In this document: positions 42,465-60,989 of the stretch, piece after piece
How the letters are laid out: each line of letters opens with the position of its first letter
Position numbering within the stretch: the first letter of the stretch is position 1
Assembly (NCBI RefSeq): GCF_900111585.1
Contig: NZ_FOHI01000009.1
Location: 1-64,000, forward strand
Source of the DNA: Nitrosospira multiformis
GTDB taxonomy: Bacteria; Pseudomonadota; Gammaproteobacteria; Burkholderiales; Nitrosomonadaceae
Direction: 5' to 3'
Length of the DNA stretch: 64,000 nt
Position numbers and translations under genes: made by a program
Notes under the pieces: generated by a model
Told to the model about the DNA's origin: nothing
The model's input: only the letters and a program-made list of their open reading frames with translations
Database searches by the model: none

Positions 42465-45400
42465 TTGCGAAGCACCTTAGTACAAAATGCATTCCGGTAC
42501 GCCCCACTGGCTTCCGGAGCAGAAAGGATATCTCGACAAGTTTTGCAAACTGCTACACCCAATCCCATTATTCCCGGCATTGACATCGGAGACGGGGGTG
42601 CCCTGCGTATCTGTAAAGGCCGCAAAGACCGTGGCGGCCTCCATGGCAACCTGCTTCAACTATCAGGATTCCGCCTCCTGTTCCATTTTTCCGGTTCGAT
42701 TTGGAGCAAAGTATCGTCGCTCTGTTCAGGTATCTGGCAACTGCTTCTGTTGCTGATGCTGATGGCATCCACGGCCCACGCAGACGGGCTGGAGCTGGAG
42801 AAACGCGATATTGTTTTTTACTATGGCAGCAGGCCGCCTGTCGAAGACCTGCGCCATTTCGACCAGATCGTCATTCAGCCAAGCCAGATTCTGCCGCATG
42901 AGAAAACAGCACTGTTGAATCTGGATTCTTCACTCGTCTTCGCCTATGTCTCGTTTGGTGAAATCGCCCGCAACAGCGAAGATATGGCGCGTATCGATAC
43001 GGATTGGTCGATAGGCGTCAATCCTGCCTGGAACAGCCTGGTAATGGACATGACCGATCCAGCCTGGCGCGAATATCTGCTGAAGCAGCACTTCGAACGC
43101 TTATGGCGTGACGGCTATCGCGCCTTTTTTCTCGATACGGTCGACAGTTACCTGATCGTGACCCCGGAAGGCAAACAACGCGAAGAGCAGGAAAAAGGAC
43201 TGGTTTCATTGCTCGCGGAAGTCAAACAGCGTTTTCCAGGATGCAAGCTCATTCTCAACCGTGGCTTCGAAGTGTTGGACCGGGCCAGTCAGTATGCTGA
43301 TGGTATGGTGGCGGAATCACTTTTTCAGGGTTTTGACCCGGTTAGCGGTAAACACGCCCCAACCAAGGAAGAAAACAGAAAGTGGCTGCTCGACCAGCTG
43401 GTGCGGGCACAAAACGAATTCAAGGTACCCATTACGGTGCTCGACTATGTCGATCCGGGAAACTGGGTAGAGGCGGAAAAAACGGCACGCAATATCCTCA
43501 AACTGGGATTCATGCCCTGGGTTGCCAATGGAGACTTGACGTGGCTGGGGCACGGGCGAATGCGCCTGGCTCCCCGCAAGCTGCTGGCTATCGTAAACGG
43601 AACACCTGCGCAGCAGATGGAGCACGATCTGTTTCGGCGCGCTGCCATGCCACTCGAATATCTTGGCATGGCGCTCGACTATTGGTACGTCGATCAGCTT
43701 CCCTTGCCGATTGAACCGCTCGTCGGGCGGTATGCCGGGATTATCGCGTGGCTGGGGAACGACAGCGCAAATGGCACCGAACGGTATGAGAGTGTCTGCG
43801 CACGGCTGCAATCAGAAGCGAATGCGGGGCTGCCGATAGTGTTCATGGGTTATCTGCCTGCGGGTGTTGCGTGCCGGAATCTGCTGGATTATCAGGGTGA
43901 ATTACAGCCGACGACCGGCATACTGAAACTCGATGGCATTAACGAGCGCCTGGGACGCCCTGAGTCCGCTCCGGTTATCGGCAGCGGCACGCCCGATGTG
44001 CGGGTTCGAGATCGCAATAACGCATGGCTCACTTTGAGCAGTGCTGACAAAATATTTCATCCGATTGCGGTGACGAGCTGGGGCGGTTATGCGTTACATC
44101 CCCATATCCTGAGTGAAAGCGTCTCCGGGCGCCACGAATGGCTGCTCGATCCTTTCGTTTTTTTCCAGGCGGCGTTGCGTCTGCCGGTGCAGCCGGTTTT
44201 TGACATGACAACGGAAAACGGGCGACGCCTGGGGATTATCGAGGTGAGGGGAGACCGCCTGTTTGCAAAGGATGAGCAGGGTGTGGAGGCGATCGATCGG
44301 CTTAGGGCCTGGATGGAAAAAAATCCACTGCCGATAACATTGGGTGTCATCGAAGCGGAAGTGGCCACCGAAGAACAGCGGAGCAAGCTGCGCCAGGTAG
44401 CCAGTTTGCCTCAGGTTCGTCTGGCGAGCCATACTTACAGCCATCCCTTTTATTGGGGGGTATTCGAAGGTAAGACAGATGCGGATCAGCAACCCTACCG
44501 TTACAGTGTATTCATGAAGGATTACGCGGCGGAAATGACGCGCGAAACGGGCGGCACTCTTCCATTCCTGCATACGATGGCACCGGATTCTCCTCCGTTA
44601 TTGATCTGGTCCGGGGATGGCAAGCCAGGACCCGCTGTGCTAGCAGCTGCGCAGAAAGGCGGGCTGCCGCATTATGGCGGAGGGGGGCTGCATTGGCAGA
44701 GCGGACAGATATCGCTTGCAGACCTTGATCCCGCACTTCGTCCGACTGAATGGGGTATTCAGGTGATGACGCCACTGATTGCCGAACCTCTGTTCGCGCA
44801 ACTCTGGTACGGCGAAGCTCTGAATTTTGGCAAGGTTGGCGAGTGGAACCGCGAACTCGACCTTGCGCGCCGGTTGCGTGTTTCGTCCATATCAATTCAT
44901 GCCGATGCATTCCTGAACGAAAGGGGGAGGGAGCTTCTGGAGCAGATGGCGGAGGCGCAGCGGAAGGAAAATGTGCTCGGCATCTGGGTCGATGAATACG
45001 TTACCCGCGTGCGCGCGTTCCAGACCGCGAGCATCGCACGCGATCTCGATGGCAATTGGTCTCTTTTCGGGGATACGCTCAGAACAGTGCGATTGCCCCC
45101 GACCGAAATGACGCCGGAAATCTCCAGCGATGTAGTCGGATATAATGACCGCAATGACAACCGCTACATCTACCTTGCCCGGAATCACGCAATCCTGAAA
45201 GCCGCCCAAGGTAAACGGAACGGAAATCCGGGACTGAGATTGATCGAGGCCAGTGCGCCCCTTAAATCCTGGCATATCAACAATGATGGTTCCGCCACGC
45301 TTTTATTTGAATCGGGGGGGCGTCTGGCTCCCTTGACTGTCACGGCTCCCGCTTCCTGCGCCTTGAGCATAAATGACACAAAATTGACGCCGCAGGCGAA

Positions 45401-45467
45401 GGGTACACATTCCGTTTATACAGTTCCAGGAAACCTGACAGCGGGAAAATTCCGGCTTGAGTGTTGA
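42465..45467 (+). CDS. pelA: PelA, Pel polysaccharide hydrolase/deacetylase
   Basis: The open frame starts at TTG 42465 (1000 residues), but the signal peptide (GIWQLLLLLMLMASTAHA) begins only around residue 88, so the real start is probably later; no in-frame ATG or GTG lies upstream of it. After it come a GH-type hydrolase domain (about 108-340; FFLDTVDSY, GMVAESLF), a middle domain, and a CE4-like deacetylase domain with the metal ligands H656 and H660 (SHTYSH). At the expected Asp-x-Asp site the sequence reads EVRGDRL (593-599), so the first Asp appears to be Arg. PelA trims and partly deacetylates Pel in the periplasm. First gene of the pel operon. Confidence 0.9.
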   Translation: MRSTLVQNAFRYAPLASGAERISRQVLQTATPNPIIPGIDIGDGGALRICKGRKDRGGLHGNLLQLSGFRLLFHFSGSIWSKVSSLCSGIWQLLLLLMLMASTAHADGLELEKRDIVFYYGSRPPVEDLRHFDQIVIQPSQILPHEKTALLNLDSSLVFAYVSFGEIARNSEDMARIDTDWSIGVNPAWNSLVMDMTDPAWREYLLKQHFERLWRDGYRAFFLDTVDSYLIVTPEGKQREEQEKGLVSLLAEVKQRFPGCKLILNRGFEVLDRASQYADGMVAESLFQGFDPVSGKHAPTKEENRKWLLDQLVRAQNEFKVPITVLDYVDPGNWVEAEKTARNILKLGFMPWVANGDLTWLGHGRMRLAPRKLLAIVNGTPAQQMEHDLFRRAAMPLEYLGMALDYWYVDQLPLPIEPLVGRYAGIIAWLGNDSANGTERYESVCARLQSEANAGLPIVFMGYLPAGVACRNLLDYQGELQPTTGILKLDGINERLGRPESAPVIGSGTPDVRVRDRNNAWLTLSSADKIFHPIAVTSWGGYALHPHILSESVSGRHEWLLDPFVFFQAALRLPVQPVFDMTTENGRRLGIIEVRGDRLFAKDEQGVEAIDRLRAWMEKNPLPITLGVIEAEVATEEQRSKLRQVASLPQVRLASHTYSHPFYWGVFEGKTDADQQPYRYSVFMKDYAAEMTRETGGTLPFLHTMAPDSPPLLIWSGDGKPGPAVLAAAQKGGLPHYGGGGLHWQSGQISLADLDPALRPTEWGIQVMTPLIAEPLFAQLWYGEALNFGKVGEWNRELDLARRLRVSSISIHADAFLNERGRELLEQMAEAQRKENVLGIWVDEYVTRVRAFQTASIARDLDGNWSLFGDTLRTVRLPPTEMTPEISSDVVGYNDRNDNRYIYLARNHAILKAAQGKRNGNPGLRLIEASAPLKSWHINNDGSATLLFESGGRLAPLTVTAPASCALSINDTKLTPQAKGTHSVYTVPGNLTAGKFRLEC

Positions 45468-48204
45468 AACGCAACGCGAATCTCTGCTAAACGCACCCGC
45501 GTTGCTGTTCATGAGCGCGGTAGTTCTCATTGCCTTCTGGGTATTGTTTCCGCGTCAGCCCGCATTCAGAGATCCAGTCAACCTGTCAGCAAAAGATGCT
45601 TTGTCAGTAGCTTATCTTCGCGTTCTCGTGCAGTCCGATCCGCGTAACGCCCCCCTGCGCCTGTCGTTCGTACAGGTACTGACGGAAGCGGGCATGACCG
45701 ATGAAGCCATTCTTGCCATGGAACCCCTGCAGAATGCTCCCGAGTCAGGGTTGACTTACGAGATTCGCCTGGCAGAGTTGAAGCTGGCGCTGCAGCAGCT
45801 TTACCGACATCCCCCCCGGGATGTCGAGACATCACTGCGAAGGCGTATCGGGGAGCTGGTCCCTGCATTGTTGCGCTTGGCTGACAATGACAAAGAGTCG
45901 AATCAGGTGGTGTTGCTGGCAGAGCAGTTTGGCGAACCCTCGGTCGTAGCGGAAACCTTCGAGCAATTGGCTGGCATGCAGAATGAAACCCGGCAGACAA
46001 AATCCCGCTGGCTGGCTTTTGCTGCCAAACAACGGCTTGCAGCCGCACAACCCAGAGTTGCAGCACGAAATTTCTGCCAGGCTCTCACTTTCGAACGAAT
46101 AGCCAGGAAGAAAACAGAATTGGCGAAAGCCTGTTTAGGCGCCTATCTTCAGGCGGGTGTCGACCGGGAGGCCTTGAAAGCCGCGATACAGATCCTTTCC
46201 GCTTATAGCGGACCAGCTGATGTCGCAGGTTCCGGTAATTCCGGCGCGGTTGCCCCCTCCAGCGCGGACGCGCAGCTGCTGCTGCTAGCGGCCGACGTTG
46301 CCCAGCCGATGGGTGATCGTGATCATGCATTAGTTTGGCTGGAGCAGGCAAGTGCACATCTACCTGCGGATCAGAAGCTTGCGGAACGTATTGTCCGGTT
46401 ACAGGTTTCGATGGGTCTCCTCAGCGAAGGTCTTGCCCGAGCGGACGTGCTGCGCGCTTCTCTGATTCCTGGAAGTGAACGTCAGCGACTGCTTGCCCAT
46501 TTGTATGACTGGAACGGTCAGGCCGATGAAGCGCTCGCCTTGTGGTTGTCTTTTGCGCGCCATAAGGCTGATGAGGAGGCTGAAACCCGGGCCTTTGCAC
46601 TGGCTCAGGCAAAGCCGGATAATGAGGCGATTGTGCAGCTTCTTGAGGCAATCATGTCCCGCCGCAAGCTGACGGCTACCGAAGCGGGAGCTTATGTCAA
46701 AGCAGGTCTCGCTGTTGCACAGCCGTCTCGTGTGGAAAAGCAGTTGCGACGTCACGCGGAGCGATTCGACAATCCTCCGCCCATACTTAACGCACTGGTG
46801 GAGGTTCTTGTTCTTCAGGGCAAACCGGATGCAGCGCTCACGTTGTATGAAGATATGCCGGAAATACAGGATGGGCGGCAGAGACTTGCATTGGCGAAGC
46901 TATATGAGGAAGCCGGCAATACGCAAAAGAGCTTTCAGTTGCTGCTTCGGGATATCGACTCGCCGGATCCCGCTTCTGCAGAAGAATACTGGCTGCTGCT
47001 GGCGAAAGTTTCCACGCAACTGGGGCAGGATGCATACGCCAGCAAAGCCTACGAAAAGGCGTTGATCCTTCGCCCGGACGACGTGGAAATTCTGGAAAAC
47101 CTGCAACGTCTGGCTCTACGTCATCATGATGATAAAAAAAGCGAGCGGCTTGCGCATTATGGATGGGAAAGATTGAAGCGCATCGAGGACTTGCAGCGCC
47201 TGATGCGTTTTTCCTGGAAGCGGCGGAATTGGGAGGAACTGGATCACTGGCTCAAGGTTGCGGAAAAACTTCCTTCCGCAGGGCAGGCGCCGGATTACTG
47301 GTATTTCCAGGCGATGCGCCGAATGGCGCATGGGGAGCAAAGCGCTGCACGTGATGCGCTGCAGGAGATCCTGAGATTGCAGGCTGCAGATCCGGAAGTT
47401 ACCGAAGCTATGATCTGGCTATTGCTGTCATACGAGAAAATTGATCGTGTACTGCTTGATTCCGTCGTTGCCCCCTATCGTGCCCAGTCAGCCAATCAGT
47501 CCACGGTCAATCCGGCCTTAGCCGAAGCCCTCGCGGCAGCGGAGCAAGGTTTGGGCAGGTCGGTTCAGGCAGCCGCCTGGTTTTTGCGATCGCTTTCGAC
47601 CCGGCCCGGGGATTTTCTCTGGATATTGACGCTGGCGGATAATATGGAATGGGCGGGTTGTCCGGCTCACGCCAATTATGCCCGTTTGCGGGCGCTCGAA
47701 ATATTCGCTTCAAAGCAGAATTCCCAAATTGAAGTGAAATATCCGCCACGCCTCGCCGAATACTTCTTCGGATCAAAGTATCTCCCAGCCAAAAGGGATG
47801 ATACCGAGGATGCAAAGAAACAGGAGGAATTACAGTCGATTCGGAACCAATGGGGCTTTGGAGGAAAACTGGATAATGCCGACTATTTCGCATTGCGTAG
47901 AGAGGTGGAACGACTTGAGCTGTCACAATGGAAAAACTTTGCAAAGGCAGTCAGGAACAGGAATGAGCGTGAAGTGGCGCGGCAGTTGGCGCTCGTTTCG
48001 GAACACCTGAAGCGTCAACCTGCGGCCGCCTCACATCCGGACATGCTCCCCTTATCTATAGACGATGTGGATCGCGCGAATCGCTGGTTGGCGGGCGAAC
48101 CGGAGCCCAACCCGAGCGATTTGGCGACGGAGCTGGATATCTGCCGCGAGACGCTGACCAAGATTCGGGAATTTCCTGCAAACAGTGAGCCTGTAAAGCG
48201 ATGA
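45457..48204 (+). CDS. pelB: PelB-like TPR protein without the outer-membrane barrel
   Basis: Starts at TTG 45457, overlapping the pelA end by 11 bases. The 915-residue protein has one N-terminal membrane helix (about 13-31, PALLFMSAVVLIAFWVLF), then VAYLRVLVQSDPRNAPLRLS and a long series of TPR-type helices up to about 760. The Pseudomonas protein is near 1190 residues because a C-terminal 16-stranded barrel exports Pel through the outer membrane. Here the chain ends in a helical, charged tail (RRLELSQWKNFAKAVRNR in part) and stops at the pelD start, so the barrel is missing rather than frameshifted. The TPR part may still guide PelA and polymer. Confidence 0.85.
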   Translation: MSVETQRESLLNAPALLFMSAVVLIAFWVLFPRQPAFRDPVNLSAKDALSVAYLRVLVQSDPRNAPLRLSFVQVLTEAGMTDEAILAMEPLQNAPESGLTYEIRLAELKLALQQLYRHPPRDVETSLRRRIGELVPALLRLADNDKESNQVVLLAEQFGEPSVVAETFEQLAGMQNETRQTKSRWLAFAAKQRLAAAQPRVAARNFCQALTFERIARKKTELAKACLGAYLQAGVDREALKAAIQILSAYSGPADVAGSGNSGAVAPSSADAQLLLLAADVAQPMGDRDHALVWLEQASAHLPADQKLAERIVRLQVSMGLLSEGLARADVLRASLIPGSERQRLLAHLYDWNGQADEALALWLSFARHKADEEAETRAFALAQAKPDNEAIVQLLEAIMSRRKLTATEAGAYVKAGLAVAQPSRVEKQLRRHAERFDNPPPILNALVEVLVLQGKPDAALTLYEDMPEIQDGRQRLALAKLYEEAGNTQKSFQLLLRDIDSPDPASAEEYWLLLAKVSTQLGQDAYASKAYEKALILRPDDVEILENLQRLALRHHDDKKSERLAHYGWERLKRIEDLQRLMRFSWKRRNWEELDHWLKVAEKLPSAGQAPDYWYFQAMRRMAHGEQSAARDALQEILRLQAADPEVTEAMIWLLLSYEKIDRVLLDSVVAPYRAQSANQSTVNPALAEALAAAEQGLGRSVQAAAWFLRSLSTRPGDFLWILTLADNMEWAGCPAHANYARLRALEIFASKQNSQIEVKYPPRLAEYFFGSKYLPAKRDDTEDAKKQEELQSIRNQWGFGGKLDNADYFALRREVERLELSQWKNFAKAVRNRNEREVARQLALVSEHLKRQPAAASHPDMLPLSIDDVDRANRWLAGEPEPNPSDLATELDICRETLTKIREFPANSEPVKR

Positions 48205-49472
48205 AGAAACCCTGGCTGGAAGGTATAGAGGTTATCGATGTAAACACCCCCGTATCTGCGTGGGGCGGCTGGTTTGAAACATTCGTTATAACTGTTGTTG
48301 TAATTGCGGCATCATTCATTACCCAGCAGGCTGACCCTTTCCGGTTGAGTGGCGGATTCCCGTGGGCAGTGCTGGCGCCCCTGTTCGTGGGGTTACGGTA
48401 CGGGTTTGTCTTTGGTTTTGTCAGCGCCCTGCTGACACTCGCAGTGCTTGGCGTTGCCATTGATCAGCAATGGCAGGCAGCGAAGAGTTTTCCGCTGCCT
48501 TGGGCGATAGGCGTTGTGGTGGTAGCGATGGTGGCTGGGGAGTTTCGTGACATGTGGGGGCGTCGCCTGCACCGGCTGGAGGGCGCGTATCAATACCGTG
48601 CCGAGCGTCTTGAAGAATTCACGCGCAGTTACCAGTTATTGCGTCTGTCGCATGACCGTCTCGAACAGACCGTTGCCAACAGCGGCTTTTCCCTGCGTGA
48701 AGGCATCATGCACCTTCAATCCACCCTGGATGCCATCGATGGATTGACGGAAAGCTCGCTGCAAAAGCTTATTGAATTTGTGGCGGAATATGGTGCATTG
48801 ACTCAGGCCTGCATCATCGGGATTACTGCCGACCGCATTGATACTTCCCACGTTCTGGCCTGCGTGGGAGAGCGATTTCCCATCGATGTGACTGATCCAG
48901 TGCTGAGAATGGCGCTCGACAGCGGCGAACTGGCCACGGTGAATCTTCTGCAGGATTCAGGGATGGATCAGGCCCAGCTTCTGGCTGCGGTACCTTTAGC
49001 CGACTCCATCGGGGAAATAAATGCCGTGCTGGCAGTGCGTTCCATGCCTTTTTTTTCGTTTCATGAAAGCAATCTCAAGCTTATCGCCGTGCTGGTGGCG
49101 CATGGCGTGGACCATCTCCGTTTCGGAACAGCGAGGCCATCGGTTCTTCGGTTTATTGCCTCATTTGAACGGGCATATCAGGATTTTTCGCGCTTCAGGC
49201 TCGATACGGCACTCCTGAGATTATCCGGAAATCCGGAGGAGATGCGGAGCATTCACGAAAAGCTGCGGTTTTCGATTCGTGCTATCGACTTTATCTGCCT
49301 TGCGCGTGAAAAGGAGCAGCATGTCGTCTGGGTAATGTTGCCCCTGACGAATATTACTGGCACACAGGCATGGGCGCAGCGAGTAACAGATATTCCCGCA
49401 ACAATCGCGCAGGAATGGATGTCTATCAACGAAATTGATCCGCAAAGGATCCGTTCCCTGGAGCAGGTGTGA
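48201..49472 (+). CDS. pelD: PelD, inner-membrane c-di-GMP receptor
   Basis: Start ATG overlaps the pelB stop (ATGA). The 423-residue protein has four membrane helices (to about residue 120), a short coiled segment, a GAF domain (about 170-310) and a degenerate GGDEF-like domain. An RxxD inhibitory-site motif is seen as RAID (360-363), with a further Arg at 394, matching the layout of the c-di-GMP contacts R367, D370 and R402 of P. aeruginosa PelD. Binding switches on Pel synthesis. Confidence 0.92.
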   Translation: MKKPWLEGIEVIDVNTPVSAWGGWFETFVITVVVIAASFITQQADPFRLSGGFPWAVLAPLFVGLRYGFVFGFVSALLTLAVLGVAIDQQWQAAKSFPLPWAIGVVVVAMVAGEFRDMWGRRLHRLEGAYQYRAERLEEFTRSYQLLRLSHDRLEQTVANSGFSLREGIMHLQSTLDAIDGLTESSLQKLIEFVAEYGALTQACIIGITADRIDTSHVLACVGERFPIDVTDPVLRMALDSGELATVNLLQDSGMDQAQLLAAVPLADSIGEINAVLAVRSMPFFSFHESNLKLIAVLVAHGVDHLRFGTARPSVLRFIASFERAYQDFSRFRLDTALLRLSGNPEEMRSIHEKLRFSIRAIDFICLAREKEQHVVWVMLPLTNITGTQAWAQRVTDIPATIAQEWMSINEIDPQRIRSLEQV

Positions 49473-50611
49473 TGCGTCGCATGTATCGCCTGCGTGCATT
49501 CTCGGGAGTGACTGCTGAAGTAGTGGCTGTTCTCCTGGTGTGGTTGAGCGCGGATGAGGCGCTTGCGGATTGGCAGGAAGGCGCGCTGCTGTTCACGGCG
49601 GCTGTATTTCACTCTGCTTCATCCTATTACCTTGCGCGCATGTTCTGGCAGTCGTTGCCGCGTCGCTACAAACTTCCTCCTCGCAGGAGTCTGGGGTTGC
49701 TGTTTACCTTTCTATGGATTCTGCCGGTTTTCGGGGCGCTGGGCGTGCTGTGGAGCATAACACGTGCATTGAAACGGCCCCGGACCCGTTCCGCGAAGAA
49801 TGTAAAGATTATAGTCCTGCCTGAGCTGCCTTTTTCACCCCCTGTCATTTTCCCTGTTCCCCCTTACAGCCAGGGGGCTCTGCGCCAGATCGTCCATTTT
49901 GCCGAGCGCTCACTCAAGCGGTTGAAAGCGGTGATGGCAACACGGCACATGGCGCCGAGAGAAGCCATGGAGGTCTGGTCGAAGGCTACTCGCGATCCGA
50001 TCGATGACGTAAGGCTGCTTGCCTATGCAATGAAGGATGCCCATGAAAAGAGGCTCACCGACCGTGTCCTGGCTTTAACCGAAGCACTGCCACACCTTCC
50101 TCCACGAGCACAAAATGCCTGCCGCAAAACGATCGCCGCGCTGTGCTGGGAGCTGGTATATCACAAGCTGGTACAGGGTGCTGTCAGACAGCATTGGCTG
50201 AAAAACGCCCGCGCACAAATGGAGGCTGTATTGACCTTGCCATCCATTCCGCGGCGCGACGTTCCCTCTGCATCTGTATCGGCTCCCGTGGGGACTGCAT
50301 CCGAAGCATCTCTGGCATCGTCCAAACATGAGAGGAGTGAAGCGTCCTCTCTATCCGGGGGCGGGAACGCCGACAGTTGGTTGTTGTATGGTCGGATTTT
50401 ATTGGAATCAGGTGAAGACGTCCTGGCGAGAAAGGCTTTTGTCAACGCACAAATCCATGGCGCGGATCAGCAACAACTGTTGCCATGGTTTGCCGAAATC
50501 GCTTTCCGGGAGCGGAAGTTTACCGAGGCAAAGCGCTGTTTATCGGCGCTTGCACGTGTTGGGGAGAAGGGGCGGGAACTGGCCCTGGTAAGAGCGTGGT
50601 GGAATAAATGA
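49472..50611 (+). CDS. pelE: PelE, inner-membrane TPR partner of PelD
   Basis: Start ATG 49472 overlaps the pelD stop (TGATG). The 379-residue protein has two membrane helix regions near the N-terminus (VTAEVVAVLLVWLSA, LGLLFTFLWILPVFGALGVL), a helical region and C-terminal TPR-like helices (NADSWLLYGRILLESGEDVL). A low-complexity Ser/Ala linker (about 270-300) separates them. PelE forms the synthase complex with PelD, PelF and PelG. Confidence 0.88.
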   Translation: MRRMYRLRAFSGVTAEVVAVLLVWLSADEALADWQEGALLFTAAVFHSASSYYLARMFWQSLPRRYKLPPRRSLGLLFTFLWILPVFGALGVLWSITRALKRPRTRSAKNVKIIVLPELPFSPPVIFPVPPYSQGALRQIVHFAERSLKRLKAVMATRHMAPREAMEVWSKATRDPIDDVRLLAYAMKDAHEKRLTDRVLALTEALPHLPPRAQNACRKTIAALCWELVYHKLVQGAVRQHWLKNARAQMEAVLTLPSIPRRDVPSASVSAPVGTASEASLASSKHERSEASSLSGGGNADSWLLYGRILLESGEDVLARKAFVNAQIHGADQQQLLPWFAEIAFRERKFTEAKRCLSALARVGEKGRELALVRAWWNK

Positions 50612-52191
50612 GCATGATCCAGGCAGGAGCGGAGAAGCCTGCGATGGTACGGGCAGCAGGATCGGTTGTGGAACGGGTGGCGGATATAGCCCTGCTGCTG
50701 GAAGGCACCTATCCTTATGTCCGTGGCGGGGTATCTTCATGGGTCCACCAGATCATAAACGGTTTGCCGGAATTTACCTTCGCCGTGATCTTCATAGGGG
50801 GTCAGAAGGAAATGTATGGACCGGCGCAATATCAGTTCCCGCCGAATGTGACCCATGTCGAAACGCACTATCTGCTGCACCGCAGCCTTGGGAAGCCGCA
50901 TGCCCGCAAGGGCAATCGCCAGGCTTTTCAGGAAATGGAAGATCTGCATGCCATCATGCGGCAGCCTGGGAAATTGGCTGAAGGGAAAATGATTGATGCA
51001 TTTGCGCGCCTGGGCGCCAAAGGCGGCATCAGCCAAGAGGATTTTCTGTATAGCGAAGCTTCCTGGGATTATATTACCCGACAGTATAAAGAGCGCTGTA
51101 CCGAGCCCTCGTTTGTGGGTTATTTCTGGGCGATACGAGCAATGCATGCGCCCCTGTTCGTGCTGGCCGATATCGCGGCTGGGCTTCCGTCGGTTCGGGC
51201 AGTGCACGCCATTTCGACCGGTTATGCAGGATTGCTGGGCGCGATGATACGGCTGCGGCGAAATATTCCTTTTGTGCTCACCGAGCATGGTATTTATACC
51301 AAGGAGCGGAAAATCGATCTGGCCCAGGCTACCTGGATCCATGATCACAATGACGATGTATGCAATACGCTGCACGATGAAATGGGGTATATCCGCGGTC
51401 TCTGGATCAGGTTCTACGAGCAGCTCGGGCGTATGGCGTACGCGCAGGCCTCACCCATTATCAGCCTGTATGAGGGGAATCGGTCGAGACAGGTTGCCGA
51501 TGGGGCAGCCCCGGAAAAAACACGGGTCATTACCAACGGAATCAATGTGGAACGTTATCGGGTCGCACTCGAAAAAAGACCGGAAAAGATTCCACCGGTG
51601 CTGGGACTGGTCGGGCGCGTGGTACCGATCAAGGATATCAAGACGTTCATCCGGACATTGCGGATGCTGGTCAAGGAGCGTCCTGACGCGCAAGGATGGA
51701 TTGTCGGTCCGGAAGACGAGGATCCGTCGTATGTGAATGAATGCAAGGAACTGGCCGAAAGTCTCGGCCTGAGGAATCATCTCAGATTCATGGGCTTTCA
51801 AAATATGCTGGAAATTCTGCCCCAGCTTGGCCTGATGGTACTGACCTCGATCAGTGAAGCCCTGCCGCTGGTAATCCTCGAGGCTTTCGCCAGCGGTGTT
51901 CCCTGCCTTGCCACGGATGTGGGGTCCTGCCGGGAGCTCATCGAAGGAGCGGCCGAGCAGGATCGGGCACTGGGGGCAGCGGGTAGTGTAGTGCACATTG
52001 CCGATCCCGAAGGCACGGCAAAAGCAGCGCTCGAACTGCTGAACAACCCGGAGAAGTGGCGCGCTGCGCAGCAGGCGGGGCTTGCGCGCGTGAAACGCTA
52101 CTATGACGATCAGCTCATGTTTTCATCTTATCGGGAAGTCTACTCGGGAGCCCTGGGCGTACCGCGGCATCCGAGTAGCGAACTGATGTAA
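50608..52191 (+). CDS. pelF: PelF, Pel glycosyltransferase (GT4)
   Basis: Overlaps pelE by ATGA. The 527-residue cytoplasmic enzyme has the PelF N-terminal signature LLLEGTYPYVRGGVSSWVHQ and, in the C-terminal lobe, VGRVVPIKDIKTFIR and the EX7E motif SEALPLVILEAFASG. It polymerises Pel from UDP-sugar precursors. The sequence gives no sign of truncation. Confidence 0.96.
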   Translation: MSMIQAGAEKPAMVRAAGSVVERVADIALLLEGTYPYVRGGVSSWVHQIINGLPEFTFAVIFIGGQKEMYGPAQYQFPPNVTHVETHYLLHRSLGKPHARKGNRQAFQEMEDLHAIMRQPGKLAEGKMIDAFARLGAKGGISQEDFLYSEASWDYITRQYKERCTEPSFVGYFWAIRAMHAPLFVLADIAAGLPSVRAVHAISTGYAGLLGAMIRLRRNIPFVLTEHGIYTKERKIDLAQATWIHDHNDDVCNTLHDEMGYIRGLWIRFYEQLGRMAYAQASPIISLYEGNRSRQVADGAAPEKTRVITNGINVERYRVALEKRPEKIPPVLGLVGRVVPIKDIKTFIRTLRMLVKERPDAQGWIVGPEDEDPSYVNECKELAESLGLRNHLRFMGFQNMLEILPQLGLMVLTSISEALPLVILEAFASGVPCLATDVGSCRELIEGAAEQDRALGAAGSVVHIADPEGTAKAALELLNNPEKWRAAQQAGLARVKRYYDDQLMFSSYREVYSGALGVPRHPSSELM

Positions 52192-52195
52192 CTAT

Positions 52196-53566
52196 ATGGC
52201 CGGCATCGGTTTCGAAATCCGCAAAATCCTGGAGCGCGACAATTACTGGTCGGTGTTGCGTGCCTATGGTTATGCCGGCCTGGTCAGCGGTGGTCCCTGG
52301 GTGCTCTCAATTCTGAGCATCATGATGATAGGCGTTCTTGCCGTCATGCTGGGTGTGGAACAGCGCGAGGTCAACGCCTTTCAGATCTGCGTTACTTACA
52401 TGATGGCGGGTTCGCTGATCTGGACCGGGGGTATGCAGCTCATGTTCACACGGTTCGTCGCGGACCGGACTTATGCCAATGACAAGGCAGAGGTGCTGCC
52501 CAATCTTTTCGGCGTCCTGATGTTGACCATGGCGGGTGGCTTTACGTGGGCAGCGCCCTTTATCTTCTCGCTTTTCACGGGACCATTTTTCCAGCAACTG
52601 TTGCTGCTGTGCAATTTTATTGTGCTGAGCGGGATGTGGATTGTCCTCATTTTCCTGTCGGGGATGAAGGCGTATGGGCGCATCATCTGGACCTTGGCCA
52701 AGGGTTACTCCCTGGGAATTGCAGTCGGACTCCTCGCATTTCCATGGGAACTCAACGGCCTGTTACTTGGCGTGCTGACCGGTCACGGCTATCTGCTGTT
52801 TTCATTCCTGCATCATATCGTGCGGGAATATCCCGGAAATTCTCTGCTCAAATTTGACTTTCTCGATCGAAGCCGGAGCTTTTACAGCCTGTTTGCGGTC
52901 GGCACGCTCTATTACCTGGCGGTGTGGATCGACAAATTCATCTTCTGGTTCGTGCCCTACACTTCCGAGGCAGTCATCGGTCCATTGCGCGCGTCCATCA
53001 TCTACGATCTTCCCATTTTTCTGGCATATCTATTCATTCTGCCGGGGATGGCCGTATTTCTGGTGAGCATAGAAGCGGATTTTGCCGAACAGCACGAACG
53101 TTTTTACCGTGCCGTGCGTGAAGGCGACACGCTGATGCATATTGAATACAGGCGTGACCGGATGGTGTATGCTGCCCGGCAGGGTATCTACGAAATCTTC
53201 AAAGTGCAGGGTCTGACGGTGGTGCTGTGCCTTCTGTGGGGCAGGGGCCTGCTGCAAACCATTGGCATATCCCCGCTCTACATTCACTTGTTTTATATCG
53301 ATGTGGTTGCAGTCAGTGTGCAGGTGCTGCTGATGGCGATACTCAACATACTTTTTTATCTCGACGCCCGGCGGGAAGTACTGATCGTTACGGCATGTTT
53401 TTTTATAACCAACCTGCTGTTCACCGTTGCCACGCTGCAACTGGGAGCCGAATCCTTCGGATACGGCTTTGCGGTATCGGTGACGCTGTCCGCATTTCTT
53501 GGTCTCTTCATCCTCTCGCACAAGTTCAACCGGCTGGAGTATGAAACATTCATGCTGCAGGGTTAG
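52196..53566 (+). CDS. pelG: PelG, Pel polysaccharide membrane transporter
   Basis: Starts 4 bases after pelF. The 456-residue protein begins MAGIGFEIRKILERDNYWSV and has about twelve hydrophobic helices in the MOP/MATE-like flippase fold. It moves the growing polymer over the inner membrane. It is the last pel gene; no pelC follows or precedes. Confidence 0.95.
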   Translation: MAGIGFEIRKILERDNYWSVLRAYGYAGLVSGGPWVLSILSIMMIGVLAVMLGVEQREVNAFQICVTYMMAGSLIWTGGMQLMFTRFVADRTYANDKAEVLPNLFGVLMLTMAGGFTWAAPFIFSLFTGPFFQQLLLLCNFIVLSGMWIVLIFLSGMKAYGRIIWTLAKGYSLGIAVGLLAFPWELNGLLLGVLTGHGYLLFSFLHHIVREYPGNSLLKFDFLDRSRSFYSLFAVGTLYYLAVWIDKFIFWFVPYTSEAVIGPLRASIIYDLPIFLAYLFILPGMAVFLVSIEADFAEQHERFYRAVREGDTLMHIEYRRDRMVYAARQGIYEIFKVQGLTVVLCLLWGRGLLQTIGISPLYIHLFYIDVVAVSVQVLLMAILNILFYLDARREVLIVTACFFITNLLFTVATLQLGAESFGYGFAVSVTLSAFLGLFILSHKFNRLEYETFMLQG

Positions 53567-55145: not shown

Positions 55146-55280
55146 ATGAACCAGATCGTAATTATGGCGCTGCGGAAACCTTACACCTTCGTGGTTCTTT
55201 CCATTCTGATCGTCCTATCTGGAATCAGGGCGATGCGGCATACGCCGACGGACGTCTTTCCCACTATCAAGACGGCATGA
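55146..55280 (+). pseudogene. N-terminal stub of an RND efflux permease
   Basis: A 44-residue frame MNQIVIMALRKPYTFVVLSI... RHTPTDVFPTIKTA matches the first transmembrane helix and the TPTDxFP motif of AcrB-type RND pumps, then stops at TGA. The rest of that pump is missing. Its stop overlaps the ATG of the following lipoprotein adaptor (ATGA). A weak AAGAGAGA precedes it. It marks the left junction of the imported efflux operon and may still be translated as a leader. Confidence 0.75.
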
Positions 55281-56368
55281 AAATGGTCACTAAATTATCC
55301 ATCGTTCTAGGCTTAATCGCCACTCTGGTATTGAGTGGATGCCAAAAACACGAGACACATGAAGAAATGCCGCACTATGCGGCAACCACACCATTCCGTG
55401 AAGACACTTCCATCCTGGAACCCTATGTCTGTCAGATTCGTGCCATCAGACATATTGAAGTCCGCTCTTTGGAAAAGGGCTATTTAACCCATATTTTTAT
55501 AGACGAAGGGCAATGGGTAAAAAAGGGACAGCCCATGTTCAAAATCATGCCCAACGTCTATCAGGCAGAACTTCTAACCGCGGAAGCCGAAGCGCAAAAT
55601 ATGAACATCGAATACCTCAATACCAAGGCCTTGGCTGATAAGAATATCGTATCACCCAACGAATTGGCTTTGGCAAAAGCAAAATTAGATAAGGCCAACG
55701 CGCAGGTGAACTTGGCGAAAACCCACTTGGGGTTCACCGATATCAGAGCACCTTTTGATGGGATTACGGATCATTTGGCTGTTAGGATCGGCAGCCTTCT
55801 GGATGAAGATGATTTGTTGACGGAGCTGTCTGATATCGCCCACTTGTGGGTCTATTTCAACGTCCCGGAAGCTAAATATCTGGATTTTATAAGGCGCGAA
55901 AAAGGCAAAACCAATGAAAAAGTGCAGTTAAGGATGGCAAATGGCGAGATTTACGATCATACGGGGGTTATCGAGACAATTGTAGGTGATTTTTATAATA
56001 CCTCCGGCAATATTCAGTTTCGTGCCTTGTTCGAGAACCCGGACAGAGTTCTCAGGCATGGTCAGACAGGAACAATCCTAATGACCGTACCTTACCCGAA
56101 CGCCATGCTCATCCCTCAAAAAGCGACGTTCGAAATCATGGATAAAATCTATCTCTACGTCGTCAACAAAGAAGAAAAAGTGGAGCAAAGGCTTCTCCAG
56201 ATAGAGGCCGAATTGCCCCACATGTTTATTGTTAAAAGCGGCGTGAATGACGGCGAGAGGATTTTGATCGAGGGTATGCGCAAAGTTAGTCCTGGAGACA
56301 AGGTTATGATCGATTTAAAGCCACCCCAAGAGGTTCGCTCAGAGTTGATGAAATTGTATACCGAGTAA
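55277..56368 (+). CDS. RND efflux periplasmic adaptor lipoprotein
   Basis: The 363-residue protein has a lipobox at LVLSGCQKH, a lipoyl half-motif (EVRSLEKGYLTHIFIDEGQWV), a helical hairpin (about 95-150), the second lipoyl half (FTDIRAPFDGITDHLAVRIG) and beta-barrel and membrane-proximal domains. It bridges the RND pump and the outer-membrane channel. Codon use is more A+T-rich than that of neighbouring chromosome genes. Its start is coupled to the RND stub. Confidence 0.9.
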   Translation: MKMVTKLSIVLGLIATLVLSGCQKHETHEEMPHYAATTPFREDTSILEPYVCQIRAIRHIEVRSLEKGYLTHIFIDEGQWVKKGQPMFKIMPNVYQAELLTAEAEAQNMNIEYLNTKALADKNIVSPNELALAKAKLDKANAQVNLAKTHLGFTDIRAPFDGITDHLAVRIGSLLDEDDLLTELSDIAHLWVYFNVPEAKYLDFIRREKGKTNEKVQLRMANGEIYDHTGVIETIVGDFYNTSGNIQFRALFENPDRVLRHGQTGTILMTVPYPNAMLIPQKATFEIMDKIYLYVVNKEEKVEQRLLQIEAELPHMFIVKSGVNDGERILIEGMRKVSPGDKVMIDLKPPQEVRSELMKLYTE

Positions 56369-56389
56369 CCTTTTAGTCAGGATTAAGCC

Positions 56390-59300
56390 ATGTTTGGTAT
56401 TTTTCTCAAAAGACCTGTGCTGGCGATCGTGTTATCGCTGTTGTTCATATTCATGGGCTTGTTGGCAATGAAATCATTGCCCGTTTCCCAGTTTCCGGAT
56501 ATTGCACCGCCCCGGGTCACGGTTTCAGTATCGTTTCCCGGTGCCAGCGCCCAGGTACTGGTGGAATCGTCCCTGATCCTCTTAGAACGCGCTATCAATG
56601 GCGTGCCTGGTATGAGATACATCACTTCGGATGCAACCAGCGCCGGAGAAGCGACCATTCAAGTATATTTCAATTTAGGCGTCGATCCGAATATCGCGAT
56701 GGTTAACGTGAAGACGCGCGTGGATCAGATGATGAGCAGGCTACCCGTACTGGTGCAGCTGGAAGGCGTGATTGTAAACTTCGTCCAGCCCAGCATGCTC
56801 ATGTATGTCAACCTCTACAGCAAAGACAAAGACGCCGATCAGAAGCTTTTGTTTAATTATGCCTATGTCAATGTTATTCCGGAGATTCAACGCATTACTG
56901 GAATTGCCCAAGCAACGATATTGGGTTCCCGCCAATATGCGATGCGGATTTGGATGAATCCGGAACGGATGAGAGCCTATGCCGTCTCGTCAGAAGAGGT
57001 GATGAAGGCACTGGCGACTCAAAGCATTATCGGACGACCTGGTCGGCTGGGCCAAAGCACAGGCATGCTCGCCCAGTCCAAAGAGTACGTGCTGGTTTAT
57101 AAAGGACGCTTTAACAAGCCGGAAGAATATGGGGACATTATTCTCCGGGCTGCTCCAACAGGCGAGATTCTGCGCATTAAAGACGTTGCCAAGGTCACTC
57201 TGGACAGCGAGTTTTATAATATTTTCTCCGATAAGGACGGATTCCCTTCCGCGTCCATCGTGCTGAAGCAAAACTACGGCAGTAATGCCCAAGTAGTCAT
57301 AGAGAACGTGAAGAAAAAACTGGAAGAATTGAAAAAATCCTTCCCGGAGGGCATGGACTACGAAATCAATTACGATGTGTCGCGTTTCGTTGAGGCGTCC
57401 ATCGACCAAGTGCTGCACACATTGGTGGAAGCCTTCATTCTGGTCTCCTTGGTGGTTTTCATTTTCCTTGGCGACTGGCGTTCTACCCTGATTCCCGTCC
57501 TCGCGGTACCGGTTTCGCTGGTCGGAGCATTTGCCGTCATGTCTGCGTTCGGGCTTTCCATCAACCTCATCACCTTGTTTGCCTTAGTGTTGGCTATTGG
57601 TATTGTGGTCGATGATGCCATTGTGGTAGTGGAGGCAGTGCATGCAAAAATGGCAGCCGAGCATTGCACCCCTTATGAGGCCTCCCGAAAAGTGTTGCAG
57701 GAAATCGGTGGCGCCATTATAGCGATTACGCTGGTCATGGTATCAGTGTTCGTCCCTCTTGCGTTTATGCCAGGACCGGTCGGGGTGTTTTATCGACAGT
57801 TCGCTATCACTATGGCGTCGTCGATCACTATTTCAGCAATTGTGGCTTTATCGCTCACCCCGGTACTGTGTGCCATGATTCTTAAAAACACTCACGGCCA
57901 GCCGAAACGGAGAAACCCGATAAACATTTTCATCGATGGCTTTAACTCTGTTTTCGAAAAGGTCACCGGCCGCTACGTCAAATTCCTGAATGTCACGGTC
58001 ACCCGGCGCCTTGTCACGCTTTTGGTATTGGTCGGGTTTGGCTTCGGCATTTTCGCGGTCGATAAAGTCTTGCCTTCCGGCTTTATTCCCGGCGAAGATC
58101 AAGGCATGATTTATGCGATTATCCAAACACCGCCCGGGTCAACCATCGAAGTGACCAACAAAGTGGCACGTGAACTGGAAATAATGGCCGCAGAAATCGA
58201 AGGCGTACAATCAATTTCTTCCTTAGCCGGCTACGAAGTACTCACCGAAGGCCGTGGATCAAATGCAGGGACTGTTGTTGTCAACCTGAAAGATTGGTCG
58301 CAACGTAAACATTCGGTAACTCAAGTCATCCACGAGTTGGAGGAAAAAGCCCATAACCTAGGTGCGACCATCGAGTTTTTTCAACCGCCCGCAGTGCCGG
58401 GATACGGTGCGGCATCGGGTCTGTCGTTTCGCTTGGTGGACAAGACGTTAGACACGGATTACTTCGAATTCGATGAACTTAATAAAAAGTTCATGGCTGC
58501 GATGCGTGAACGTAAGGAATTGACCGGCTTGTTCACTTTTTATGCGGCCAATTATCCGCAATACGAACTGGTCGTCGACAATAGGCTGGCCATGCAAAAA
58601 GGGGTTACCATCGAAGACGCGATGAATCACCTGGACATCATGATCGGCAGTACTTATGAACAGGGCTTTATTCGCTTCAATAACTTTTTTAAGGTCTACA
58701 CCCAGGCCGCGCCGGAATTCAGGCGAGCCCCTGAAGATGTGTTGAAATATTTTGTGAAAAATGATAAAGGCGAGATGGTGCCGTACTCTGCCTTCATGAC
58801 CATGGAGAAAAAGCAGGGGCCCAACGAGCTGACGCGTTATAACCTCTATAACACGGCGGCGATCCGGGCTGAGCCCGCACCCGGTTATACCACTGGCGCA
58901 GCTATCAAGGCAATCGAAGAGGTCGCGGAAGCCACTTTGCCGCGAGGTTTTGAAGTTGCCTGGGAAGGCTTGACATTCGACGAAGCCCTCCGGGGCAATG
59001 AAGCAGTGCTGATCTTCGCCGTCGTTATCCTGTTTGTCTATCTGGTGCTGGCCGCACAATACGAAAGCTTTGCTTTACCCTTGGTCGTGTTATGTTCGCT
59101 ACCCCCTGGTATTTTCGGTGCCTTTTTATTGTTAAAAGGATTAGGGCTTGCCAATGATGTCTATTCCCAACTGGGAATGGTGATGTTAATTGGCTTGCTC
59201 GGCAAAAACGCGGTACTGATTGTCGAGTTTGCAAGCCAGAGGCAAGTCGAAGGAGGCATGACGGTCAAAGAAGCGGCGATTGCGGGCGCAAAAGAGCGTT

Positions 59301-59569
59301 TTCGGCCGATTTTGATGACTTCCTTTGCCTTTATAGCCGGGTTGATACCCCTAGCGATGGCTACGGGAGCTGGAGCGGTCGGCAACAGGACGATTGGTAC
59401 CTCAGCACTGGGTGGGATGCTTACCGGTACCGTGTTTGGCGTCCTCGTTATTCCAGGACTTTATTATATTTTTGCGAAAATGGCAGAGGGTAAAAAATTA
59501 ATTCAAGGTGAAGACCTTGATCCTCTAGCCGAAACTTATCATTACGGCCCGGATGACAATGAAAAATAA
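56390..59569 (+). CDS. RND multidrug-type efflux permease (HAE1 family)
   Basis: The 1059-residue protein has the twelve-helix two-repeat RND plan. It begins MFGIFLKRPVLAIVLSLLF; the proton-relay Asp pair is in GIVVDDAIVVVEAV in helix 4, and GKNAVLIVEFA lies in the second half. The length is as for AcrB/MexB. Substrate is not predictable. It lies 22 bases after the adaptor gene and overlaps the channel gene. Confidence 0.95.
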   Translation: MFGIFLKRPVLAIVLSLLFIFMGLLAMKSLPVSQFPDIAPPRVTVSVSFPGASAQVLVESSLILLERAINGVPGMRYITSDATSAGEATIQVYFNLGVDPNIAMVNVKTRVDQMMSRLPVLVQLEGVIVNFVQPSMLMYVNLYSKDKDADQKLLFNYAYVNVIPEIQRITGIAQATILGSRQYAMRIWMNPERMRAYAVSSEEVMKALATQSIIGRPGRLGQSTGMLAQSKEYVLVYKGRFNKPEEYGDIILRAAPTGEILRIKDVAKVTLDSEFYNIFSDKDGFPSASIVLKQNYGSNAQVVIENVKKKLEELKKSFPEGMDYEINYDVSRFVEASIDQVLHTLVEAFILVSLVVFIFLGDWRSTLIPVLAVPVSLVGAFAVMSAFGLSINLITLFALVLAIGIVVDDAIVVVEAVHAKMAAEHCTPYEASRKVLQEIGGAIIAITLVMVSVFVPLAFMPGPVGVFYRQFAITMASSITISAIVALSLTPVLCAMILKNTHGQPKRRNPINIFIDGFNSVFEKVTGRYVKFLNVTVTRRLVTLLVLVGFGFGIFAVDKVLPSGFIPGEDQGMIYAIIQTPPGSTIEVTNKVARELEIMAAEIEGVQSISSLAGYEVLTEGRGSNAGTVVVNLKDWSQRKHSVTQVIHELEEKAHNLGATIEFFQPPAVPGYGAASGLSFRLVDKTLDTDYFEFDELNKKFMAAMRERKELTGLFTFYAANYPQYELVVDNRLAMQKGVTIEDAMNHLDIMIGSTYEQGFIRFNNFFKVYTQAAPEFRRAPEDVLKYFVKNDKGEMVPYSAFMTMEKKQGPNELTRYNLYNTAAIRAEPAPGYTTGAAIKAIEEVAEATLPRGFEVAWEGLTFDEALRGNEAVLIFAVVILFVYLVLAAQYESFALPLVVLCSLPPGIFGAFLLLKGLGLANDVYSQLGMVMLIGLLGKNAVLIVEFASQRQVEGGMTVKEAAIAGAKERFRPILMTSFAFIAGLIPLAMATGAGAVGNRTIGTSALGGMLTGTVFGVLVIPGLYYIFAKMAEGKKLIQGEDLDPLAETYHYGPDDNEK

Positions 59570-60989
59570 AACATTTCGGCTTATGGCTTTAGTCGTGCTG
59601 GGGCTGCTGTTGCAGGGTTGTATTCCTAAAGTAGCAATCAAAAAAGCAGATGTGCCTCTTCCTGCTACTTTTGAACCGGACGTTTTTGAAACGACCAGTA
59701 CGGCGACCGTCATGCGGAAGGATTTTTTCGATGACCCTGCCTTATCAGATTTGCTAGAGATAGCTGTTGCTAATAATAAAGAAATTAATATTATGCTGCA
59801 GCGCATCACCATTGCACAAAATGAAATCCAAGCGCGTAGAGGCCAATATTTGATGCCATTGGTAGGTATTCGTGCTGGCGCAGGCGGAGACAAAGTCGGC
59901 GAGTTTACGCGCTTCGGCGCTATCGAAGAGGAACTGCCATTAGCCGGCAAACACTTTCCTACGTTTCTTGGCGATTTTCGATTTGAGCTATTTTCAACTT
60001 GGGAGGTAGATATATGGAAAAGATTGAGGAATGCGAGAGAAGCGGCTGTGCTGGAGTACATGGCATCTAAAGAAGGTCAAAATTTTTTAGTGACCAACCT
60101 GGTCGCTGACGTTGCTCATTCGTACTATGAATTGCTTGCCCTGGACAACCACCTTGAGAATTTAGAGCAAAATATCAGGATTCAGGAAAATGCGTTGGAG
60201 ATGGTTAAACAACTTCTGCTGTATGCAAGAACAACTGCACTTGCGGTCAAACGTTATGAAGCAGAAGTGGCAAAAAACAAAAGCAACATATACAAAATTA
60301 AACAGGATATTACGGTTGTTGAAAACCGGATCAACTTCCTGTTAGGGAGAACGCCGCAGCCTATCCAGCGTGCTTCCAGTAGTTTTATGGAGCAAAACCC
60401 CAAAGTACTCATGACAGGTATTCCGTCGCAATTGCTACAAAACAGGCCTGATATTAGGCAAGCGGAGCTTGAGCTATCGGCAGCGGAATTAAACATAAAG
60501 GTGGCCAGGGCAAATTTCTTTCCCACCTTTAACATAAACGCCGGGGTAGGATTTGAAGCTTTCGCGGTTAAGTACCTGTTCAATACCCCACAATCATTGG
60601 CAGCCGCTGTTGCCGGAGAGCTAGTAGCTCCAGTGATCAATAGGTACGCTATCAGAGCCGAATATAAAAACGCCAGTGCCAGGCAAATTCAGGCAGCTTA
60701 TGAGTATGAGCAAAGTATTATCAATGCTTATGTGGAAGTAGCGAATCAAATTTCAAACATCGATAAGCTCAAAAAAAACTATCAGTTCAAGACAAGCCAG
60801 GTGGAAGCGCTCGTCCAATCAATTGATGTCGCTAGCCAGCTATTCAAATCTGCTCGTACGGACTACCTGGATGTGCTATTGACACAAAGGGATAGCCTGG
60901 AGGCCAAACAAGATCTAATTGAAACGCAACAAAAGCAATTTGACGCAATGGTGGATCTTTATAGATCACTTGGTGGCGGTTGGCAGTAG
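59553..60989 (+). CDS. Outer-membrane efflux channel (TolC/OprM-like lipoprotein)
   Basis: The ATG at 59553 lies 17 bases inside the permease gene; the ATG at 59559 is an alternative. The 478-residue protein has a lipobox LLLQGCIPK and two TolC-like repeats with long helices (about 100-280 and 300-470), including LLQNRPDIRQAELELSAAE. It completes the tripartite pump. It is the most A+T-rich gene of the three, supporting transfer of the operon from another lineage. Confidence 0.92.
   Translation: MTMKNKTFRLMALVVLGLLLQGCIPKVAIKKADVPLPATFEPDVFETTSTATVMRKDFFDDPALSDLLEIAVANNKEINIMLQRITIAQNEIQARRGQYLMPLVGIRAGAGGDKVGEFTRFGAIEEELPLAGKHFPTFLGDFRFELFSTWEVDIWKRLRNAREAAVLEYMASKEGQNFLVTNLVADVAHSYYELLALDNHLENLEQNIRIQENALEMVKQLLLYARTTALAVKRYEAEVAKNKSNIYKIKQDITVVENRINFLLGRTPQPIQRASSSFMEQNPKVLMTGIPSQLLQNRPDIRQAELELSAAELNIKVARANFFPTFNINAGVGFEAFAVKYLFNTPQSLAAAVAGELVAPVINRYAIRAEYKNASARQIQAAYEYEQSIINAYVEVANQISNIDKLKKNYQFKTSQVEALVQSIDVASQLFKSARTDYLDVLLTQRDSLEAKQDLIETQQKQFDAMVDLYRSLGGGWQ

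Follow-up and report, generated by a model that had tools for sequence, protein, structure and literature searches.

The window analysed here is the opening 64,000-nucleotide stretch of Nitrosospira multiformis contig C20, which is 97,306 bases long and belongs to a 3.2 Mb assembly of 21 contigs that is 99.62% complete. It contains a pel operon of six open reading frames (ORFs), in the order pelA-pelB-pelD-pelE-pelF-pelG, with ends that overlap or nearly touch; by ORF reading, pelC is absent. The product of pelB is a short protein with a tetratricopeptide repeat (TPR) scaffold and without the outer-membrane barrel of other PelB proteins. An earlier note on this DNA had recognized the six closely packed genes, and their positions are confirmed here, with the exception of the pelA start discussed below.

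42465..45467, + strand: pelA, signal peptide followed by hydrolase-like and deacetylase domains; true start uncertain
45457..48204, + strand: pelB, short form of 915 residues, N-terminal hydrophobic helix and TPR scaffold, without barrel; TTG start
48201..49472, + strand: pelD, receptor of cyclic diguanylate (c-di-GMP) with a degenerate GGDEF domain
49469..50611, + strand: pelE, assigned by its position between pelD and pelF and by BLAST similarity
50608..52191, + strand: pelF, glycosyltransferase (NF038011 PelF, E 1.5e-229; PF11997, E 2e-102)
52196..53566, + strand: pelG, inner-membrane transporter (PF16933 PelG, E 1e-150)

Judged by the family assignments of PelA, PelD, PelE, PelF and PelG, the Pel synthase core (pelADEFG) is complete. 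PelF and PelG score far above the family cut-offs (763 bits against 100 for NCBIfam NF038011, and 503 bits against 29 for PF16933). PelA satisfies PF03537 (E 3e-14), and its residues 115-969 align with residues 4-870 of the solved PelA structure 9cgy_A (855 residues aligned, E 3e-120). In that alignment, the histidines of SHTxSHPFxW and the glutamate of xxESxxxGx, which we take to be the catalytic residues, are matched; the hydrolase and deacetylase domains are both present by alignment. PelD aligns with the solved PelD 4dmz (E 7e-21), with RAID placed on the RGLD of the RxxD c-di-GMP site, and scores just under the cut-off of PF16963 (24.3 bits against 27). PelE matches by BLAST the PelE proteins of a second type of pel operon found in some relatives (type II, described below), with 24-32% identity and in the same position. 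The start of pelA at 42465 may be too early: homology begins around codons 79-118 in more distant relatives, and the open frame aligns from codons 1-20 in loci L036-L039 of the four closest relatives. Within the segment 42465-42760, codons 61-95 of the pelA frame contain no ATG, GTG or TTG, though the signal peptide seems to start there.

The short PelB contains TPR_15 (E 2e-38, Pfam scan), and its residues 9-745 align with residues 14-718 of PelB 9h80_M, a protein of 1193 residues (E 3e-20). The model of the PelB C-terminal barrel, PF24604, has no match in the window PelB at E up to 1; the same model finds the barrel of a relative's fused PelB at residues 883-1191 (E 1e-83). Profile-profile comparison with hhalign, using a profile of 22 short PelB sequences (A3), placed residues 6-852 of the short form on residues 1-836 of a 1192-residue fused PelB (probability 100, E 2e-54). 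In residue alignments with fused PelBs, the short form terminates right before the barrel region, in agreement with the end proposed in the earlier note.

45472..48012, + strand: scaffold-colinear part of PelB, residues 6-852, aligned by hhalign to a fused PelB in which the barrel model begins at residue 883
48013..48201, + strand: C-terminal 63 residues of PelB, standing where the barrel would be; core at about residues 865-905 conserved

The AlphaFold2 model of PelB (18 sequences; mean predicted local distance difference test (pLDDT) score 78, predicted template modeling score (pTM) 0.48) consists of helices only, with no strand of three or more residues and hence no sign of a tail folding as a barrel; in places, the pLDDT of the tail falls below 50. 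When this model was compared to the PDB with Foldseek, the 50 rows listed were TPR-like proteins or others built of helical repeats, and their TM-scores of 0.13-0.35 are too low to be informative. The "charged helical tail" that had been described at the end of PelB is helical in the model, and most of it turns out to be the end of the scaffold. Only the last 63 residues are unmatched outside the genus, with no significant match beyond the short-PelB operons (best E 0.35). Within this segment, residues 865-905 have a mean majority fraction of 0.80, compared to 0.62-0.67 for residues 736-852. The TTG start of pelB recurs in all seven relatives inspected, and the protein shares 92-96% identity with three records of Nitrosospira multiformis. 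By alignment and structural model, the window PelB is predicted to comprise the canonical membrane helix and TPR scaffold without the canonical barrel, that is, a periplasmic scaffold minus the pore. A frameshift or assembly error in pelB is ruled out by the recurrence of the short form in 22 genomes, and a barrel remnant 3' of the stop codon is ruled out by the overlap of pelD with that stop.

No pair of pel genes in the window leaves intergenic space sufficient for pelC. Neither Pfam nor NCBIfam has a model that matches a relative's PelC at E up to 0.1, so PelC profiles were made from relatives: A1 from the PelCs of type II operons and A6 from 16 diverse PelCs. Barrels were sought with A2, built from fused PelB barrels, and A5, built from split PelB barrels, in which the pore belongs to a separate TPR-barrel protein. 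At E up to 10, A1 and A6 found no PelC, and A2 and A5 no barrel, anywhere in the genome, the window included. By these profiles, canonical PelC is missing from both the operon and the genome, in line with the earlier note, which had reported no pelC in or around the operon. A split-type arrangement is not apparent either: the operon contains no TPR-barrel ORF, none recurs in the flanks, and A5, a profile of low reach, returned nothing.

As controls, A1 detected PelC in 11 of the 125 genomes of the family and A2 detected a barrel in 14, in each case including the same five genus members with a type II operon. Each of the 11 family genomes with such an operon yielded both PelC and a barrel to the two profiles (E <1e-90), some of the detected sequences having gone into profile building. 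A6 detected PelC in the five genus genomes with a type II operon (E <1e-60). It also gave a weak partial match in G112, a genome without a type II operon (E 2.6e-4, within a 534-residue frame), and weaker ones in G104 and G105 (about 0.04) and G099 (0.09), with none in the window's genome. A5 missed the fused-type barrels of the five genus genomes, which points to low reach across subfamilies; as it has no positive control inside the genus, its silence is weak evidence, and a third kind of barrel could escape detection.

The short-PelB operon, which we denote type I, is a fixture of the genus as sampled; the genus and order names of relatives are inferred from records with a short PelB and from general knowledge. 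PelG was detected in 29 of the 125 family genomes, namely all 23 of the window's own genus and six of another genus, taken as Nitrosomonas. All 23 genus genomes carry type I (in L059, the contig holds pelD-G only), and PelB is short in 22 of the 22 where it is fully readable. A barrel-only profile matched none of the PelBs of 21 type I relatives (E up to 10, default filters). In five of the 23, a type II operon is present as well, with a PelB of about 1190 residues, PelC and a different gene order; the other 18, the window's genome among them, have neither PelC nor barrel by A1 and A2. All 17 named records with a short PelB are titled Nitrosospira or Nitrosovibrio, as retrieved with two narrow peptide patterns that distant relatives could escape. 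The gene upstream of the operon, which in the window codes for a folate-binding protein (GCV_T), is the same in all 21 relatives' loci that extend there, and the genes downstream are variable. In the window, the region downstream of pelG (55277-60989) encodes a resistance-nodulation-division (RND) efflux set of HlyD-type, AcrB-type and outer-membrane efflux proteins. The RND pump with its outer-membrane efflux protein was rejected as a polymer exit, given that its HlyD-type gene follows pelG in only three of 22 relatives' loci (L037-L039).

All six pel frames are open in the 22 complete type I loci. Pairwise ratios of nonsynonymous to synonymous substitution rates (dN/dS) between the window and eight of the 22 type I loci from other genomes ranged from 0.03 to 0.41 across the six genes: 0.07-0.11 for PelA (codons 100-1000), 0.08-0.18 for PelD, 0.14-0.33 for PelE, 0.09-0.14 for PelF and 0.03-0.06 for PelG. 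Within PelB, the ratios were 0.10-0.16 for residues 1-735, 0.16-0.41 for residues 736-852 (four of eight pairs, the others being saturated in dS) and 0.07-0.18 for residues 853-915 (computable in six of eight pairs). Purifying selection maintains all six genes, and within PelB the terminal segment as well. The view that the short pelB is not a frameshifted remnant, previously based on the overlap with pelD, is strengthened by this selection and by the fixation of the short form in the sampled genus.

In a tree of PelF and PelG from 110 loci, the 23 type I sequences form a single clade (support 1.0), and type II forms a separate one. At successive nodes, the nearest neighbors of type I are L127, L142, and then L143 with L145 (support 0.85, 0.97 and 0.96). 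These loci belong to the same class but to other orders, and each has a fused-family barrel and PelC; deeper nodes are less well supported. Because type I nests among operons with barrel and PelC, the absence appears derived, and most likely pelC and the barrel were lost rather than never acquired.

Comparison with other pel loci, which the earlier note had suggested, sets type I apart. The window PelG had a match in 43 of the 399 genomes of the order. All 40 loci outside the family were examined, and the 37 that remained after exclusion of three cut by contig ends (L068, L070, L094) were evaluated. The barrel is present in 37 of 37, with a broken PelB frame in L073 and L080, and PelC in 36 of 37, the exception being L099, where PelB and PelA are shortened as well. 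In wider samples, PelG matches, some weak and some already seen, were found in 24 of 369 genomes of the class and 34 of 398 of the phylum. From these, 40 further loci were examined, leaving out G925 (pelG at a contig edge), weak PelG matches in G561, G699 and G803, and matches below the cut-off in G953, G1149, G1160 and G1164. Barrels were found in 31 of the 40 (17 of the fused-PelB family and 14 of the split type) and PelC in 30. Among the fused family, PelB is divided over two ORFs in L131, L133, L135 and L136. The TPR-barrel ORF of the split type has 472-951 residues, and in all eight split-type loci inspected at the level of single genes, the barrel gene lies beside that of a long TPR-like protein, taken to be the PelB scaffold (of the eight, the Pfam scan covered that of L139).

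Contig ends truncate five of the nine wider loci without a barrel (L123, L126, L132, L134, L153). Among the others, L141 shows a lone PelG on a contig of 8.9 kb, L156 has undergone rearrangement, and L161 is barrel-less without further resolution. The last, L159 (L159:4914-16201), comes from a distant proteobacterium (G886) that has another pel locus besides. It encodes a 934-residue TPR-only PelB, with neither barrel nor PelC found, and is the one close and possibly independent parallel to type I. Three further loci (L139, L158, L160) have a barrel gene and no PelC by profile. Among the complete pel loci examined outside type I, a pore gene is present in nearly all and pelC in most. Joint loss of the barrel and pelC is rare, and each step singly has precedent.

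The nearest precedent for an unlinked pore probably comes from G031 and G087, two Nitrosomonas-like members of the sister genus, where contig ends prevent proof of the distance. There, a pel operon with PelC and without pelB lies on a contig of 18-19 kb, and PelB is split, on another contig (L165, 12.4 kb; L166, 6.0 kb), into a TPR protein of 399-413 residues and a TPR-barrel protein of 843 residues, with no other pel genes in the part read.

L165:7242-10969 and L166:659-4428: split PelB pair, TPR gene and TPR-barrel gene

In three other genomes of the family (G091, G060, G059), a PelB-type barrel gene or fragment occurs without a PelG match; these are either leftovers of lost pel systems or barrels put to other use.

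L167:9922-11517, L168:4629-7055 and contig C200 of G059: barrel genes or fragments without PelG

The type I operon is a real, conserved and derived variant of pel without a recognizable outer-membrane exit, and its polymer must either leave by an unrecognized route or be retained in the cell envelope. The earlier note had offered the same pair of alternatives, together with two findings that would speak against the absence itself, namely a PelC homologue or separate barrel gene in the window and a barrel fold in the PelB tail. Neither appeared, and the results support the choice as an either/or.

We put at about even the chance that the scaffold passes the polymer to an unrelated outer-membrane pore encoded elsewhere. 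In the Nitrosospira stem, pelC would have been lost and PelB cut at the boundary between scaffold and barrel. In the resulting system, PelF would synthesize the polymer, PelD, PelE and PelG would carry it through the inner membrane under c-di-GMP control, and PelA would deacetylate it, individual roles that we presume from Pseudomonas. From its anchor in the inner membrane, PelB without a barrel would then guide the polymer across the periplasm. Because the last 63 residues are constrained and conserved after a variable linker, the C-terminal segment may serve for docking, handing the chain to an outer-membrane pore of another family. We infer the identity of the polymer, which in a Pel producer would be partly deacetylated GalNAc, as well as its exit from the cell and the pore in trans. 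In alginate export, AlgK and AlgE are likewise separate proteins, a periplasmic TPR protein and an outer-membrane pore; unlike the arrangement proposed here, the alg genes are adjacent, and the pore family is unrelated. Further points in favor of a pore in trans are the retention of the PelB scaffold at nearly full length, the separation of the pore gene from a TPR-only PelB in split-type loci, and the presence of Wza-type genes throughout the genus (PF02563; two or three matches per genome in 23 of 23, two in the window's genome).

Several observations weigh on the other side. The two Wza-type genes of this genome sit in XrtA and XrtB exosortase loci with chain-length and outer-membrane proteins of their own (TIGR03007 and TIGR03016; EpsE, EpsF and EpsL), so that Wza-type proteins are possible and not likely partners of Pel, looking committed to other polymers. 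No pore candidate emerged from the PelB-type profiles, the Wza family or the flanks, a search that did not extend to BcsC, PgaA, AlgE or genome-wide barrel prediction. By eye, no pore-like outer-membrane gene recurs within about 3-5 kb on either side of the operon. Moreover, the PelB model was built from 18 related sequences with a pTM of 0.48, and both manufacture of the polymer and its arrival at the surface are predicted here from genes alone.

The alternative that survives best, although clearly less probable than a pore in trans, is that the polymer never passes the outer membrane and serves in the envelope, kept in the periplasm or trimmed there by the hydrolase of PelA. It would fit the failure of A1 and A2 to find PelC or a PelB-type barrel in 18 of 23 genomes of the genus, and the lack of any visible linked pore. 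PelA keeps the residues aligned with those taken as catalytic, and the situation would be comparable to Gram-positive Pel, for which no outer-membrane pore is required. The maintenance of the scaffold and of its conserved end segment, seemingly beyond the need for PelA docking, argues against retention. A specific form of it, a c-di-GMP-controlled synthase-dependent machine that ends in the periplasm, with a cationic Pel-type polymer kept inside the envelope by the barrel-less PelB, is a shade more doubtful still; among the matches listed in our literature search, no such use of a synthase-dependent machine was found.

It is unlikely that a PelB-like barrel or PelC is present and has escaped notice, either by divergence too great for detection or by falling in the 0.4% absent from the assembly. 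The silence of A5 even for the five genus genomes with fused-type barrels leaves room for a diverged pore, and the partial A6 match in G112 (E 2.6e-4) leaves room for a diverged PelC. Against this, A1 and A2 succeed in all 11 family genomes with a type II operon, A6 finds its five controls and is silent in the window's genome at E up to 10, and the absence is repeated over 18 assemblies.

Decay, in which the barrel is gone and the remainder of a cryptic operon lingers, is very improbable given the open frames of six genes in 22 complete loci and the low dN/dS at genus depth, even though the export parts are lost and, according to the abstract of PMC10269871, all seven pel genes are required in P. 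aeruginosa. The one interrupted operon is that of L049, where two opposite-strand ORFs of foreign appearance split it between pelD and pelE. Least probable is borrowing of the PelB and PelC of a type II operon, which five of the 23 genomes could do and 18, including the window's, could not, as they have no such operon and no PelC or barrel by A1 and A2; for the window's genome it is refuted by these searches, barring the missing 0.4% of the assembly.

The two ORFs in L049 (8637-11109; 123 and 515 residues) have no Pfam match, and that genome is one of those that also carry a type II operon. In all four type II loci scanned, an Agd3-like deacetylase gene (carbohydrate esterase family CE18) is located in or near the pelB-pelC region; the L044 protein matches the Agd3 structure in the PDB with E 4e-8.

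L044:4410-6626, L031:15791-17995, L048:1-1935 and L033:6100-8325, - strand: Agd3-like genes (PF25115/PF25116)

Agd3 homologues near Pel genes of some Gram-negative bacteria are already mentioned in parts of PMC7229062.

Compared to pelABCDEFG of Pseudomonas aeruginosa, the window operon shares matching PelA, PelD and PelB scaffold, the PelF and PelG families and the gene order except for pelC, and differs in lacking the PelC ring and the PelB barrel. In sections of PMC12141448, the PelC ring of the PelBC export complex (PDB 9h80) is called essential, and PelC is said to have failed to co-purify with PelB deprived of its helices. Split-PelB operons (among L138-L162) resemble type I in having a TPR-only PelB made of membrane helix and scaffold; in contrast to Nitrosospira type I, for which no pore gene was found, theirs adjoins. 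Such "pelB fission" is named in the Figure 5 legend of PMC7112194. The pelDEADAFG operon of Bacillus cereus, as presented in parts of PMC7112168, likewise has neither pore nor PelC, in a cell without an outer membrane and without pelB, whereas the PelB scaffold is kept here. A 2020 operon survey notes a duplicated pel operon of Nitrosospira multiformis with gain and loss of loci (Figure 5(ii) legend, PMC7112194). This may cover the operon type described here; the legend does not specify which loci disappeared, mentions neither the lack of a barrel nor the fixation in the genus, and offers no analysis of the exit. Among the matches listed, in a search scope with most subscription journals outside it, no title or opening of an abstract describes a barrel-less PelB in Nitrosospira.

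A genus that keeps the rest of pel under selection after losing the barrel and pelC offers a natural experiment on three questions: the function of the PelB scaffold by itself, the possibility of separating scaffold from pore, and the usefulness of a synthase-dependent polymer within the envelope. Members of Nitrosospira are ammonia oxidizers of soil, and their matrix and aggregation could affect nitrification.

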